From IMG/VR virus record IMGVR_UViG_3300019762_000018, positions 1 to 36,145 of that record: DNA of 36,145 nt; one strand, written 5' to 3'. Within the stretch, counting starts at the first letter, position 1. Each line of letters begins with the position of its first letter. This DNA comes from a virus. The notes below the pieces were generated by a model. That model did no database searches. It saw only the letters and a program-made list of their open reading frames with translations, and was not told the DNA's origin. The translations under genes were made by a program, and so were the position numbers. Positions 5,694 through 29,784 of the stretch are shown here, piece by piece.

Positions 5694-5703
5694 GGTGGAT
5701 AAC

Positions 5704-6750
5704 ATGGAATTTAATTACAAATGGAATTTATCAGATTTAAAAAAAGTTAAACCTAACGGATATAAAGTATTTAGTTGTTTTGCTGGTGGTGGTGGAAGTT
5801 CACAAGGTTATAAAATGGCTGGATATGATGTAATAGGCTGTAACGAGATAGACCATAGACAAATGGAAATATATAAATATAATTTAAAACCTAAATATTC
5901 ATACTTAGAAGATATTAGAACTTTTAGACTTAGAGAAGATTTACCAAAACAATTATTTGAATTAGATATTTTAGACGCTTCATTTCCTTGTAGTTTATTT
6001 TCAACTGCAAATCCTAAAGCTGATGCAAAAAAAGGTAAAGAGGTTAAATTTAGAGAGGGTCAAGTTAAGCAAACTTTGGATGACCTGGCTTTTGAAGCGA
6101 TAAAACTAGTCGATAAAATAAAACCTAAAATTTGTGTATTTGAAAATGTAAAAGGTTTATTACAAGAAAAAAATAAATGGTATGTAGAACAGATATATTC
6201 TCAATTTGATAAAATAGGATATAGAATTTGTCATCATCTTATAAACTGTGCTGATTTAGGAGTTCCACAAAATAGAAGAAGAGTTTTTTTCTTTGCTGTT
6301 AGAAATGATATATTTGTTCCTACTGCTGATATATTTGAAACTGAACCATTGATAAACCTAAATATCAAGGAGAATCATGTGCCATTTAAAGACATAGAGA
6401 GCTTTGATGAAAGTCCATTATTTAATAATCCCTCTCCTAGTTGTAAAAAAGGTTGGGATAATGCTTTACCTGGTCATAAACTTTATGAAGATAAAAAATT
6501 TACAAGCTATAAAATTGACCCAAATAAAACATTGAAGACAATAGCTTCAAATTCATCAAAGGCCAGGGAGGGAGCATTACACTATAAAGATTTCAGGATG
6601 CTTACTCAAAGCGAAGTGTACAAAGCTTTTTCATTTCCTTTGGATTATGAATGCAAAGACCCATATTATGTTTGTGGTATGTGTGTTCCACCTTTAGCAA
6701 TGTATAGAATAAGTAAAGAGATTCAAATACAATGGTTAGATAAGTTATAA
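5704..6750 (+). CDS. DNA (cytosine-5-)-methyltransferase
   Basis: A 348-residue C5-cytosine methyltransferase. Motif I (F-S-C-F-A-G-G-G-G-S-S-Q-G, residues 23-35) binds S-adenosylmethionine; motif IV is F-P-C-S (nucleophile Cys96); motif VI F-E-N-V-K-G; motif VIII G-V-P-Q-N-R-R-R-V-F-F; a target-recognition region follows; the C-terminus has the C-V-P-P form of motif X. The ATG at 5704 follows GGTGG; an open frame extends upstream but lacks a better start. No restriction endonuclease is adjacent, so it is probably an orphan enzyme that protects phage DNA. The stop overlaps the next start (TAATG). Confidence 0.92.
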   Translation: MEFNYKWNLSDLKKVKPNGYKVFSCFAGGGGSSQGYKMAGYDVIGCNEIDHRQMEIYKYNLKPKYSYLEDIRTFRLREDLPKQLFELDILDASFPCSLFSTANPKADAKKGKEVKFREGQVKQTLDDLAFEAIKLVDKIKPKICVFENVKGLLQEKNKWYVEQIYSQFDKIGYRICHHLINCADLGVPQNRRRVFFFAVRNDIFVPTADIFETEPLINLNIKENHVPFKDIESFDESPLFNNPSPSCKKGWDNALPGHKLYEDKKFTSYKIDPNKTLKTIASNSSKAREGALHYKDFRMLTQSEVYKAFSFPLDYECKDPYYVCGMCVPPLAMYRISKEIQIQWLDKL

Positions 6751-9790: not shown

Positions 9791-9886
9791 ATGATAAAAA
9801 TAAAACTAAATCAAATTACAGACTTTACAGCAACTTTTAAATTTAAAGGCGAAGTTGGATTTTATAGAGTGAAGATTTTTCAATGA
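9791..9886 (+). CDS. 31-aa basic peptide
   Basis: ATG at 9791 with AAGGAT in front; the stop overlaps the ATG of the HNH gene (ATGA at 9883-9886). Alternating hydrophobic and Lys residues suggest a small beta structure. Possible leader or true microprotein; not recognised. Confidence 0.4.
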   Translation: MIKIKLNQITDFTATFKFKGEVGFYRVKIFQ

Positions 9887-10212
9887 TTGGAATATCAAAA
9901 GCCGAACAGTTAAAGCATAATGAAAATCAAAAAGACAAAAGAGTAAGCAAATCAGAATTAAAGTCAAGAGTAGAATTTATACTAAGTAAAGAAGTTTGTC
10001 AAGTGTGTAATGTATCAACAAATTTAGATTATCCACATCATAGTGAGTTTGGATTATCTAAGAAGAATGATTATAGTTTAATAAACATTTGTATTGATTG
10101 TCATAGACATATTCACACTAAAGGATTTCCTATACACGGACTAAGCAGAAACGACACTATACAAATAGGAATAAGAAACAATACGGAGTATTTTTTAAAT
10201 GAAAAAAGATGA
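9883..10212 (+). CDS. HNH-type zinc endonuclease-like protein
   Basis: 109 residues. C39-x2-C42, P-H-H (52-53), then N-I-C70-I-D-C73-H74-R-H-I-H78: the cysteine pairs and His cluster of a compact HNH/treble-clef nuclease, as in DUF968 and NinG-like phage recombination proteins. The first 30 residues are a basic helix. Its place between the annealing protein and a VRR-NUC nuclease points to processing recombination intermediates rather than homing. The 3' end overlaps the next gene by 14 bp. Confidence 0.65.
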   Translation: MIGISKAEQLKHNENQKDKRVSKSELKSRVEFILSKEVCQVCNVSTNLDYPHHSEFGLSKKNDYSLINICIDCHRHIHTKGFPIHGLSRNDTIQIGIRNNTEYFLNEKR

Positions 10213-10586
10213 ACAGAAACTATCTGAAAACATAGCTAAATTTTTAAGAACTCAATACAAAGATATTATATTTCGATTTGATATAGGAGCAGACATAAAG
10301 CTTACAATTGGACAAGCCACAAGAGTAAAAAATAAACTTCTACATGATAGAGGATATCCCTGACCTACTTATTTGTGAAATGCGAAGCGGATTTGGTGGT
10401 TTATACATAGAATTAAAAAAGAACAAAGGAGAAGTTTATAAGATAAATGGAGAGTTTAAAAAGAATGAACATCTAGCAGAGCAGTTGAGATATCACGAAA
10501 GACTTAGAGAAAAAGGCTATAAAGTGATTTTCGGATTAGGATTTGACGATACAGTCAAAAAAATAAAAGAATATTTAAAAGGATAA
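10199..10586 (+). CDS. VRR-NUC nuclease expressed by +1 frameshift
   Basis: The frame opened at 10199 ends at TGA (10361-10363) after 54 codons, exactly between Pro and Asp of the family's G-x-P-D motif. The +1 frame supplies D-L-L-I, then G-G-L-Y-I-E-L-K-K (catalytic E-x-K) and the helical end, up to 10586. Reading CCC, shifting +1 and continuing at GAC (10362) gives one 128-residue protein with D55, E71 and K73 in place. VRR-NUC enzymes are PD-(D/E)XK nucleases that cut structured DNA. The 54-residue zero-frame product would be inactive. An ATG at 10344 could start the second frame but has no ribosome-binding site and would lose the first helix. A plain inactivating frameshift is the alternative. 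Confidence 0.7.
10349..10363 (+). other. prfB-like +1 frameshift signal
   Basis: AGAGGA (10349-10354), TAT, CCC, TGA, then C. The E. coli release-factor-2 signal has AGGGGG, TAT, CTT, TGA, C: same order, same 3-nt spacing between the internal Shine-Dalgarno-like element and the slippery codon, same weak TGA-C stop. CCC followed by T allows proline tRNA to re-pair with CCT. CCC-TGA +1 shifting is reported for Listeria phage PSA (from memory). Confidence 0.65.
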
Positions 10587-10589
10587 ATC

Positions 10590-10913
10590 ATCAAAAATTT
10601 AAGTGTAGCAAATGGAACATACGAAAAAGACGGACAACAAAAGACAAGATGGGTAAATGTAGGTAAGATTATGGAAAAAGATGGAAAAGAATTTATGCTT
10701 ATTGACCCATTAGTAAACTTTGCAGCATTTCCAAGAGAAGCTGGAAAAGATATGGTAATGGTTGGAATCTTTGAAGAACAAAATAGCAATAATCAAAACC
10801 AAGGTAATTATAATAATCAACAACCGCAACAAAACTATAACAATCAAGGACAACAACAATATAGCCAACAACCGCAACAAAACTACAACCAGCCACCGCA
10901 ACAACAATATTAA
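10590..10913 (+). CDS. SSB-like protein with Q/N-rich tail; probable ATC start
   Basis: A conserved-looking N-terminal domain (K-N-L-S-V-A-N-G-T-Y, then K-T-R-W-V-N-V-G-K-I-M, then F-P-R-E-A-G-K-D) of about 63 residues is followed by about 45 residues of Q/N/P/Y repeats ending Q-Q-Q-Y, like the disordered tail of single-strand DNA-binding proteins. The domain runs upstream of the first ATG (10671) without a break to the TAA of the nuclease gene. The only start that keeps it whole is ATC at 10590, 6 nt after AAGGA. An ATG start at 10671 would remove 27 residues. It probably covers single strands in replication and recombination. Confidence 0.6.
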   Translation: MKNLSVANGTYEKDGQQKTRWVNVGKIMEKDGKEFMLIDPLVNFAAFPREAGKDMVMVGIFEEQNSNNQNQGNYNNQQPQQNYNNQGQQQYSQQPQQNYNQPPQQQY

Positions 10914-10925
10914 AAAAAGAATTTA

Positions 10926-10973
10926 TAAATATTTACTAAAACTATTGACAATAGTAAATATTTATTATATAAT
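10926..10973 (+). promoter_or_regulatory. Consensus promoter embedded in overlapping palindromes
   Basis: TTGACA (10945-10950), 17 bp, TATAAT (10968-10973): perfect consensus. The -35 is the centre of ACTATTGACAATAGT (10941-10955), a perfect 15-bp palindrome. A 13-bp inverted repeat, TAAATATTTACTA (10926-10938) with TAGTAAATATTTA (10952-10964), overlaps it. A regulator bound here would block the -35. Transcription should start at about 10980, the A of the next gene's ATG. Confidence 0.8.
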
Positions 10974-10979
10974 TACAGC

Positions 10980-11171
10980 ATGAAAGAAAATACAACATTA
11001 AAAAAAGTAACAGACCAGCAGTTGATTAATGAAAGCGGAATAAATAGAACCACTTTTTTTAAGATAAAAAAACAATACCCAAAAGCAATTAAATTAATGC
11101 AAAAAGGTTTTATTGTTGGAATGATACTAAAAGATGATGTTGTAAATTCTTTACTTAAAAACAAGGAATAA
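10980..11171 (+). CDS. Small HTH regulator, apparently leaderless mRNA
   Basis: 63 residues. T-D-Q-Q-L-I-N-E-S-G-I-N-R-T-T-F-F-K-I-K-K (about residues 11-31) reads as a helix-turn-helix of Cro/MerR-like type, followed by a basic helix and a short C-terminal helix. There is no Shine-Dalgarno sequence, and the -10 box ends 6 bp before the ATG, so the transcript should begin at the start codon, as lambda cI mRNA from PRM does. Palindromes over the promoter suggest self-regulation. It is a candidate for the switch protein of this phage. DNA binding and autoregulation are inferred. Confidence 0.65.
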   Translation: MKENTTLKKVTDQQLINESGINRTTFFKIKKQYPKAIKLMQKGFIVGMILKDDVVNSLLKNKE

Positions 11172-25200: not shown

Positions 25201-25578
25201 ATGGGAGCAATACTAAACGAATTAAATCAGATAATATCTAAAAAGAATTTAGTTGTAGCTACTATTGCGAATGATTTATATAACGAGTTAGTAAATGCTA
25301 CTCCAGTTGGTAATCCTAGTATATGGAAAAATCCTAACTCCGCACCAAAAGGGTACTCAGGTGGTTATCTAAAAGGTGGATGGGAATTAAAAGAATTATC
25401 GAATGGAAGTTGGATAATAGACAATCCTACTGAGTATGCAGAGTTAAGAATTGCCCCTTTAATAATAGATAGTGACGGAGCAGTATTACAGGGTAGTAAA
25501 CAATTTAGCGCTGGAGCTGAGCAGATAATAGACAAGTATAACAGAATATTAGAATCTAAGCTAAAGGCAATTAAGTAA
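25201..25578 (+). CDS. Tail completion protein (HK97 gp10-like)
   Basis: 125 residues from ATG 25201. The sequence N-A-T-P-V-G-N-P-S-I-W, then G-Y-S-G-G-Y-L-K-G-G-W (about residues 28-62) and Y-A-E-L-R form the P-V-x-T-G-x-L-x-x-x-W-like core of gp10 head-tail/tail-completion proteins. Its last codons overlap the end of a convergent HNH gene by 8 bp. Confidence 0.7.
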   Translation: MGAILNELNQIISKKNLVVATIANDLYNELVNATPVGNPSIWKNPNSAPKGYSGGYLKGGWELKELSNGSWIIDNPTEYAELRIAPLIIDSDGAVLQGSKQFSAGAEQIIDKYNRILESKLKAIK

Positions 25579-26242
25579 TGTTTCTAATGTGTGGTAAGTT
25601 ATTTTTTATTATATATTCATCCCTTATTTTTACAGCATCCATTATATCTATAAAGCATCCTAGATATACATAACTATTGTTAATAGATATCTTCGCAATC
25701 CATTTGTTTATTTTTTTGTTAAAATAAACTCCCCTATAACCACTAGTATTTGTCTTTATTAATTTTCTTGTATTTGTAGCTTGTATTGTATTGTTAGACC
25801 ATCTACAATTGCTAGGCTCATAGTTTCCATCATTATCAATTCTATCTATCGTTAAGTTATCTTCATATCCATTTAGCATAGCCCAATTATAAAAATTAAT
25901 AAAACTATTTTCCCATTCTTTACACACAGTAATTCCTCTATTACCGTAATCATTAAATTTATGGCTATTCTTATTCGTGCATCTTGCCTTGATTCCATAA
26001 TAAATATTATACAATCTATGTCTACATAAATTATGCACAGTTGCTTTTTCAGTTAGTATTCTTTTTTTATGACATCCGCATGATTTACAACTACCGTTCT
26101 TTGCTATATTTGTATTAGTTTTAAACTCTTTACCGCAGTAACATTTATATAACCCATATCTTCTTTTTTGTTTACTGTTTTCATTAGCATATTGCATACC
26201 TAAGTCTTTTATTAATATTGGTTTAGTGATTTTTGTTTCCAT
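25571..26242 (-). CDS. Free-standing homing endonuclease, HNH plus AP2, copy 1
   Basis: 223 residues from the ATG at 26242, preceded by AAGGAAAC. Order: N-terminal zinc finger (C-Y-C-G and C-K-S-C-G-C), HNH core (L-T-I-D-R-I-D-N-D-G-N-Y, then N-C-R-W), and a C-terminal AP2 DNA-binding domain (S-G-Y-R-G-V-Y-F, then W-I-A-K-I, then Y-L-G-C-F). Such genes spread by cutting genomes that lack them. It is inserted against the tail operon and has a leader RNA shared with copy 2 (29137). An ATG further upstream (26290) is unlikely since it lies within the leader. Confidence 0.88.
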   Translation of the reverse strand: METKITKPILIKDLGMQYANENSKQKRRYGLYKCYCGKEFKTNTNIAKNGSCKSCGCHKKRILTEKATVHNLCRHRLYNIYYGIKARCTNKNSHKFNDYGNRGITVCKEWENSFINFYNWAMLNGYEDNLTIDRIDNDGNYEPSNCRWSNNTIQATNTRKLIKTNTSGYRGVYFNKKINKWIAKISINNSYVYLGCFIDIMDAVKIRDEYIIKNNLPHIRNIT

Positions 26243-26318
26243 TGAAGTTTCCTTGTATTCATTTTGTATTCTTATGGAATGGGGACTCATGACTTTCCCC
26301 GAATACTTTTATATTATA
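26243..26318 (-). promoter_or_regulatory. Promoter and co-varying leader RNA of HNH copy 1
   Basis: Reverse strand: TATAAT (26318-26313), 6 nt, then GTATTC at the predicted transcript start (26306-26301), a GGGGA/TCCCC hairpin (26300-26281), TCCATAA, GAATAC (26271-26266), AAAAT, GAATAC (26260-26255), AAGGAAAC and ATG. GTATTC can pair with either GAATAC copy; the second touches the Shine-Dalgarno sequence. HNH copy 2 has the same layout with GTTATC and two GATAAC copies. Confidence 0.75.
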
Positions 26319-28303: not shown

Positions 28304-28813
28304 ATGGCAACAAAGCTACAATTCACGGAAAACTTTACAATAGAAGTACCAAAAAAAGATGGAACATTCGATGAAATTAAAGGTAAAGTATTAGCAATAA
28401 CACCAAAATTAGAAAAATCAATAAAGCTTAAATTTAAAGAGCGAGATAACATCGCAAAAGCAAATAAAAAAAATCAAAATAAAATATCAAGATTACAACA
28501 AAAAGCACAAAACTTAGAATTAAGAATACCAATAACAAAAGATGAAGATAAAAAGAATCAATTATTAGAAGAACAACAGTCAATAATGGACGAAGCTTAT
28601 AGATTAAGCGACAAATTAGAAGATGCGATTATAGATAATGATGATAACATATCTGAGATTATCGCCAAAGAGCATATAGATAACAGAGTTCGTTTAAATG
28701 AAGAAAACAAAGTTAGATTGGATTTAATATGCGAAAATTATGGGTACACAATCGTATGGGAAACTATAAACAAAGATATTAAAGAGGGAAAGTCACAAGA
28801 TACGAAAAATTAG
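28304..28813 (+). CDS. Tail assembly chaperone, G-type (zero-frame product)
   Basis: 169 residues. Beta start (L-Q-F-T-E-N-F-T-I-E-V-P) then long charged helices, as in tail assembly chaperones. The zero-frame stop is at 28811-28813, 19 bp after the slippery sequence GGGAAAG (28786-28792). In lambda the G protein and the G-T fusion coat the tape measure during tail assembly; gene order here (tube, this gene, tape measure) is the same. Confidence 0.75.
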   Translation: MATKLQFTENFTIEVPKKDGTFDEIKGKVLAITPKLEKSIKLKFKERDNIAKANKKNQNKISRLQQKAQNLELRIPITKDEDKKNQLLEEQQSIMDEAYRLSDKLEDAIIDNDDNISEIIAKEHIDNRVRLNEENKVRLDLICENYGYTIVWETINKDIKEGKSQDTKN

Positions 28814-29133
28814 TCGAATGGGCTGGGCAGTTTGCAAGGAAAAAATCTTTTGAAAACTACGATAAAGAAGATTTAAAAGGTATCTTAGAGCAAGGTACGA
28901 ATCTTGCAGTATTTGAAGATGATGACAACGAAGCGAATACATTGCTTTATATATTCAAAAGACTAAAATTTGAATATGATGGTATGTCTTCAACTCCAAC
29001 AGGCTACGATTATCTAAAAGCAAAAGATTATGTTAAATGGATTGGCTTAAAACCTAGAGATTATATACCGATACTGGATAGTATGTTTGATAAATTTGTG
29101 AGTTCACTTCCTAAGCCTAAAAAGAAGAAATAG
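28304..29133 (+). CDS. Tail assembly chaperone, GT fusion by -1 frameshift
   Basis: At G-GGA-AAG (28786-28792) a -1 slip moves ribosomes to the frame that opens after a TAA at 28780-28782 and runs to 29133, adding V-T-R-Y-E-K-L-V-E-W-A and about 100 further residues. Fusion length is 276 residues. The downstream frame has no start with a ribosome-binding site; a TTG at 28942 lies in mid-domain. The heptamer is the one used at lambda G-T. The T part ends in P-K-P-K-K-K-K, 3 bp from a convergent HNH gene. Confidence 0.82.
28786..28792 (+). other. -1 ribosomal slippery site GGGAAAG
   Basis: In zero frame it reads G-GGA-AAG, so both tRNAs can re-pair after a -1 slip (GGG, AAA). It lies within the only overlap of the two frames (28783-28813). 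Confidence 0.85.
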
Positions 29134-29136
29134 AGC

Positions 29137-29784
29137 CTAAGAAAAATTCTTAGTATGCTCTAAATTATTATCTGTTACATATTTATCGTACGCATAAGCT
29201 GCTTGCAGTCTACAGGTATAACAACCTAAGCTAAATTTTTTATAATTTACTGTTATTTCACATGCCCATTTGTTAGTATCTTTTCTAAAAGACACTCCTC
29301 TATAACCACTTTTATTATTACTTCTTAATTTTCTTTGATTTCTATTTTGAATAAGTTGAGTAGTCCATCTACAATTATTAGGATTATAACCCTCATCGTT
29401 TTTAATTCTATCAATACTTAGATTATTTGCATATCCATTTGCTAAAGACCATTGCTTAAATATTTCAAAGTCTTTTAGCCACTCATTACACATAGTAATA
29501 TTTTTAGATTTATAAACAATAAATTCTTTTCCATCTTTTGCGTTAGTTCTTTGTTTTATTGAGTGCCAAATTCTATAAAGTCTTTTGTCTTCCAAAGTAA
29601 ATAGTTTTTTAGATGTACATGATTTACAAACACCGCTCTTGTTATTTATTTTTCTATCTGATACTATTAAAACAAATTCATTATCACATTTGGGACATAT
29701 TGCTATATGTTTCTCACTTAAATGTCTTGTTTTATCTCTAATAGGTTCGTATGATTTTATTATATTGAAGTCTTTTAATTCCAT
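29137..29784 (-). CDS. Free-standing homing endonuclease, HNH plus AP2, copy 2
   Basis: 215 residues. Zinc finger C-P-K-C and C-K-S-C (about residues 31-66), HNH core L-S-I-D-R-I-K-N-D-E-G-Y-N-P-N-N-C-R-W, and AP2 domain S-G-Y-R-G-V-S-F, W-A-C-E-I, L-G-C-Y. Paralogous to the gene at 25571 over the HNH and AP2 parts. Inserted against the tail genes between chaperone and tape measure. Start ATG 29784 with AAGGAAAC. A CTAAGAA/TTCTTAG hairpin (29137-29153) lies at its 3' end. Confidence 0.88.
   Translation of the reverse strand: MELKDFNIIKSYEPIRDKTRHLSEKHIAICPKCDNEFVLIVSDRKINNKSGVCKSCTSKKLFTLEDKRLYRIWHSIKQRTNAKDGKEFIVYKSKNITMCNEWLKDFEIFKQWSLANGYANNLSIDRIKNDEGYNPNNCRWTTQLIQNRNQRKLRSNNKSGYRGVSFRKDTNKWACEITVNYKKFSLGCYTCRLQAAYAYDKYVTDNNLEHTKNFS

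Follow-up and report, generated by a model that had tools for sequence, protein, structure and literature searches.

A phage VRR-NUC nuclease gene whose frame is broken between the Pro and Asp of its active-site PD motif, at a shift-prone site

The structures of the stand-alone VRR-NUC nucleases of bacterial or phage type, psNUC (PDB code 4QBL) and stNUC (PDB code 4QBN) were described by Pennell et al. 2014 (PMC4103454). In psNUC, Mg is bound by the E-PD-ExK motif, which is stabilized by a conserved Gln contacting the catalytic Lys (PMC4103454). The phage protein described here shares with these enzymes the predicted fold, the E-PD-ExK motif and the Gln, but its reading frame is broken between the P and the D of PD, whereas the gene is continuous in 22 homologues.

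The frameshift signal of the release factor 2 (RF2) gene prfB has the consensus AGGGGG (PMC12421855) and the slip codon CTT, the latter being nearly universal. The phage junction has in common with prfB a purine hexamer, a 3-nt spacer, a pyrimidine slip run, TGA, a C after the stop and the +1 direction of the shift. It differs in having CCC rather than CTT and AGAGGA rather than AGGGGG, and in the signal not being conserved in the gene family.

The phage junction shares its slip codon and stop with the tsh gene of the Listeria phages PSA, A118 and A500, where CCC_UGA is a utilised +1 shift site (PMC5009743). These are likewise low-GC phages with a rare CCC proline codon, which accounts for only 5% of proline codons in the host (PMC5009743). 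There the shift gives a tail protein gene an additional product, whereas the phage nuclease would need the shift for any activity. Of the E. coli genes that end in CCC_UGA, about half show more than 1% shifting (PMC5009743). A further likeness is to the corrective, or “savior”, frameshifting over indels, where a frame lesion at a shift-prone spot leaves some full-length product (PMC5009743), whereas for the phage nuclease such partial rescue is plausible by inference from the site.

The window, that is, the whole stretch of DNA that was analysed, is a viral record of 36,145 bases with about 30% G+C, whose + strand carries head and tail genes. The split nuclease gene sits in a recombination operon, and its layout is given in Table 1. 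When CCC is read and a +1 step follows, the two frames join into a product of 128 amino acids, ...HDRGYP-DLLICEMRSGFGGLYIELK.... The earlier note had claimed that the zero frame stops inside a catalytic motif and continues in the +1 frame, with the spelling AGAGGA-TAT-CCC-TGA-C at the junction. Both statements are accurate, as the +1 frame runs to 10586 and the spelling is exact at 10349–10364.

Table 1. Features of the split nuclease gene and its immediate neighbours
Feature	Position	Strand	Remarks
Small HNH-like gene, upstream	9883..10212	+	14-nt overlap with the nuclease start
Zero-frame ORF, N-terminal 54 aa of the VRR-NUC nuclease	10199..10363	+	ATG start, TGA end; first helix with conserved E5, FRFDIGADIKLTIGQA, through R-G-Y-P
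+1-frame open stretch, C-terminal 74 aa from D55	10329..10586	+	First ATG at 10344
SD-like purine hexamer AGAGGA	10349..10354	+	Encodes the conserved Arg-Gly
Spacer codon TAT	10355..10357	+	Conserved Tyr
Candidate slip codon CCC (Pro54)	10358..10360	+	Rarest Pro codon of the phage
TGA stop and following C	10361..10364	+	TGA at 10361–10363, C at 10364
Downstream gene	10587..10913	+	Homologous to the small phage protein after the exonuclease gene in Cobetia and Sulfitobacter phages

The homologue alignment finds conserved E5, Y20, D28, G38 and A40 all in the zero-frame half, and PD, E71-x-K73, H91 and Q95 in the +1-frame stretch. The LH..RGYPDL of the homologues agrees with the zero frame as far as Gly-Tyr and with the +1 frame from Asp onward, which places the frame change at the GYP|D junction. 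An alternative position, upstream of Gly-Tyr, was also considered, the +1 frame reading EDIPDLL and some homologues having I-P-D; it is ruled out by the closest homologues, which match the zero-frame LH..RGY.

The joined 128-amino-acid protein is a stand-alone VRR-NUC nuclease resembling Holliday junction resolvases, and evidence from PHROGs, profile, fold and motif upholds the proposal of a VRR-NUC nuclease split at its active-site PD. The protein matches PHROG 5702, “Holliday junction resolvase” (E 1e-12), and aligns end to end with an intact protein of Thiohalocapsa phage LS06-2018-MD03 (44% over 1–127, E 2e-16), while the family profile matches PDB 4QBL (E 2.4e-11). The AlphaFold2 model of the joined protein has a pLDDT of 76 and a pTM of 0.72, and its best Foldseek matches are 4QBL and 4QBN, of the restriction-endonuclease-like fold, with a probability of 0.99–1.00 and a TM score of only about 0.5–0.6. 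In Pfam the joined protein itself has no match, and 9 of 10 aligned family members match VRR_NUC (PF08774; best E 6e-4). By its family the enzyme would be a nuclease of the dimeric Holliday-junction-resolvase type, with putative dimerization and junction cleavage.

The equivalents of the E-PD-ExK motif are E5, P54-D55 and E71-x-K73, each conserved in at least 20 of the 21 aligned homologues, and the conserved Gln is Q95 (21 of 21). E5 and P54 precede the break and D55, E71, K73 and Q95 follow it, so that the active site is divided and neither fragment holds the whole of it.

Further homologues were gathered by iterated searches of viral and genome contigs. The comparison covers 22 distinct sequences about 31–52% identical; 21 of these enter the conservation alignment, L004 being the other. 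The closest one, L036, is 52% identical to the joined protein. Neither a stop nor any frame change is found at the D55 position in any of the 22, L036 included, and L037, which has the same order of HNH and VRR-NUC genes, also reads straight through the junction. The conservation of the stop and of AGAGGA, which the earlier note named as support for programming, is thus not seen at these distances, with the stop in 0 of 22 homologues, none of them closer than 52%. Since identity reaches only about one half even in the closest homologues, there is room for a young signal confined to this lineage.

Several other searches looked for relatives of the site. When IMG/VR was scanned for [K/R]-G-Y-P directly before TGA, one match came up, to an unrelated in-frame EDIPD in another protein, and no second VRR-NUC case, and an exact-pattern scan of IMG/VR around the shift site gave nothing, in databases from which close relatives of the window may be missing. 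Scans with single proteins (the nuclease, the terminase and the product of the 7513–8127 gene) returned either none or only 40–48% relatives without the nuclease. No VRR-NUC match was found in plasmids, and among 297 genomes sampled from the phylum of G002, which was reached via the Polaribacter contig L017, there was no family member besides L017. The 15-mer AGAGGATATCCCTGA recurs in an unrelated phage protein (L033, 11176–11200, − strand), where it lies in another frame and is read as EDIPD; this spelling can therefore arise without any shift.

The downstream half of the gene keeps 17 of the 18 positions that are conserved in at least 80% of homologues, all catalytic ones included, and contains no further stop. 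This lack of decay indicates that the break is recent, erroneous or translated through.

The likeness to the prfB signal has a source in the protein. The Arg/Lys-Gly-Tyr codons of the conserved motif make up both the purine tract and the TAT spacer, and intact homologues spell this motif as AGA GGG TAT CCG GAC (L018), AGG GGA TAC CCG GAC (L040), AGA GGT TAT CCA GAC (L037) and AAA GGT TAT CCC GAT (L003). As purine tracts occupy the same place in intact genes, the SD-like and spacer parts are independent of a stop. The E. coli RF2 peptide at its own shift site is R-G-Y-L-D, and the resemblance is largely due to this shared peptide, R-G-Y-(P/L)-D. What sets the phage gene apart is the frame change alone, by which P-D becomes CCC TGA C.

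Of the mirroring of the RF2 signal claimed in the earlier note, the SD-like element, the spacing and TGA-C stand, whereas the slip codon is CCC, not CTT, and the SD-like element is weaker than the prfB consensus. The pairing of AGAGGA with the anti-SD sequence ACCUCCUUA, which may not be that of the host, amounts to −5.8 kcal/mol, as compared with −8.3 kcal/mol for AGGGGG. In intact genes an SD energy as strong as that of AGAGGA is found at 92 of 9087 codon positions (1%); three of these 92 have a latent out-of-frame TGA, and none of the three has a pyrimidine-pyrimidine slip codon. The 9702 codons of 56 intact genes, which contain 480 latent TGA triplets in the relevant frame, were also searched with a loose rule combining a latent TGA with a pyrimidine slip codon and, at the proper distance, an SD-like 4-mer. 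The rule selects 10 codons, two of them with C after the stop. The probability that a random break looks this good is about 1e-3 to 1e-4. These figures make the match better than a random break would give, yet its SD-like and spacer parts are fixed by the R-G-Y coding.

CCC is the rarest proline codon in this phage (7 of 206, or 3.4%). No downstream RNA stimulatory structure is found (z about +0.5 to +0.6), which counts against programming, though the prfB shift needs none. The further suggestion that a purine tract followed by CCC_TGA_C makes a credible site for a +1 shift is sound, given the use of CCC_UGA by Listeria phages (PMC5009743), and the shifting seen in E. coli genes with this ending supports leakiness of the phage site. 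If the sequence is right, some full-length nuclease is likely to be made in any case.

The gene following the nuclease begins, by homology, with ATC (TAA ATC ATC AAA) directly after the nuclease stop, and no ATG, GTG or TTG occurs in its frame before 10671. Explanations for it would be a rarely used ATC start, reinitiation coupled to termination of the nuclease, or another fault in the sequence. The odd start keeps the possibility of a sequence error alive, though about 50 other genes look intact. Beyond this gene lies an AT-rich promoter-like stretch, TTGACA...TATAAT (10915–10986, + strand), which over 72 bp shares 79% identity with a Helicobacter prophage. This is the only host-related match and may be taken as a weak hint at a Campylobacterota host.

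Elsewhere in the record, the heptamer G_GGA_AAG (28786–28792, + strand) lies in the overlap of the ORFs 28304–28813 and 28783–29133, upstream of the tape measure gene, which is the usual layout for the −1 programmed frameshift of tail assembly chaperones; neither ORF has a PHROG match. Two − strand genes (25571–26290 and 29137–29784) are of similar make-up, with a zinc-ribbon-like start, an HNH-like middle and an AP2-like end, and sit between structural genes, as homing endonucleases do. The product of the gene at 5695–6750 (+ strand) is a DNA cytosine methyltransferase that shares 41% identity with an enzyme encoded by a phage-like Bacillus altitudinis plasmid, which also has terminase and portal genes.

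If the shift were programmed, an RF2-like +1 signal would set the amount of full-length nuclease through slow termination at UGA, and most ribosomes would end with an inactive fragment of 54 residues. Such programming is unlikely, and the estimate of about one in four is a judgement rather than a computed posterior. It is favoured by the position-by-position match of the SD-like element, the spacing, the CCCT slip run, UGA and the C at +4, by the rarity of such sites in this genome, by the intact C-terminal half, by the canonical-looking −1 site in the tail-chaperone overlap of the same phage, and by the precedent of Listeria tsh, where CCC makes up 5% against 3.4% here (PMC5009743). The match is, however, conserved in 0 of 22 homologues, coding accounts for its SD-like element and spacer, CCC stands for CTT and the SD pairs less strongly than the prfB consensus. 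Outside prfB, programmed +1 sites are also rare, and in the GeneTack survey homology-confirmed singleton frame breaks were mostly indels or errors (PMC3711429). The more elaborate proposal, in which an RF2-type shift is placed in the resolvase PD so that the enzyme is active only under slow UGA termination, possibly with tuning of the next gene and its ATC start, is rather doubtful.

The metagenomic contig may also be off by one base at the junction, the real gene being continuous. Consistent with this, the break falls at a short C run, every homologue is intact, the downstream half is undecayed and a second anomaly follows 240 nt on, where the next gene has no standard start at the point where its homologues begin. 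A run of three is nevertheless a weak error hotspot, and the absence of another obvious frame break among about 50 other open genes of the contig points to a low overall error rate; an error here is a rather improbable cause. Far less probable is a two-subunit nuclease, in which ORFs of 54 and 80 amino acids would be translated apart, the second from ATG 10344, and form one joint active site. This ATG lies 17 nt upstream of the stop of the first ORF, so that reinitiation is geometrically possible, and the 80-residue ORF alone still matches resolvase PHROGs. However, the ATG lacks a ribosome-binding site (SD energy +1.6; 50 of 52 gene starts have a stronger one), the second ORF would have MIEDI in place of the conserved RGY, E5 of the E-PD-ExK site would be left on the other chain, and no homologue is split.

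The explanation tentatively preferred, although it falls somewhat short of an even chance, is a lineage-specific change of frame by one base, of recent origin and probably leaky, at a shift-prone site, rather than an evolved switch; recent mutation and sequence error, as a pair, are more likely than such a switch. The data show a split gene of this family, with conserved residues flanking the break and homologues that lack it, while a real recent mutation and leaky shifting are inferred. The one-base change would have hit the conserved R-G-Y-P|D motif of the VRR-NUC gene, where the R-G-Y-P codons by accident amount to a purine tract, a spacer of 3 nt and CCC ahead of TGA-C, and this accident would have created a +1 shift-prone site. 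Slow termination at UGA-C would let tRNA-Pro slip from CCC to CCU and yield some full-length nuclease, so that the lesion would probably be leaky rather than null. Counting against the recent mutation, sites this good occur at 10 of 9702 codons under the loose rule and at none under the strict one, and the missing standard start of the downstream gene also fits a sequence error. The term lineage-specific would apply relative to distant homologues, the closest of which is 52% identical.

The gene thus belongs to a known class of nucleases and carries its frame break where a shift is likely; programming is possible there, but conservation does not support it. If programmed, it would represent an RF2-type shift outside prfB that cuts exactly through an active site and puts a phage DNA enzyme under the control of host termination capacity. 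If not, the conserved R-G-Y-P-D motif lets a broken gene mimic the prfB signal, which calls for caution in frameshift predictors, and the locus shows how leaky shifting may buffer an indel at such a spot.
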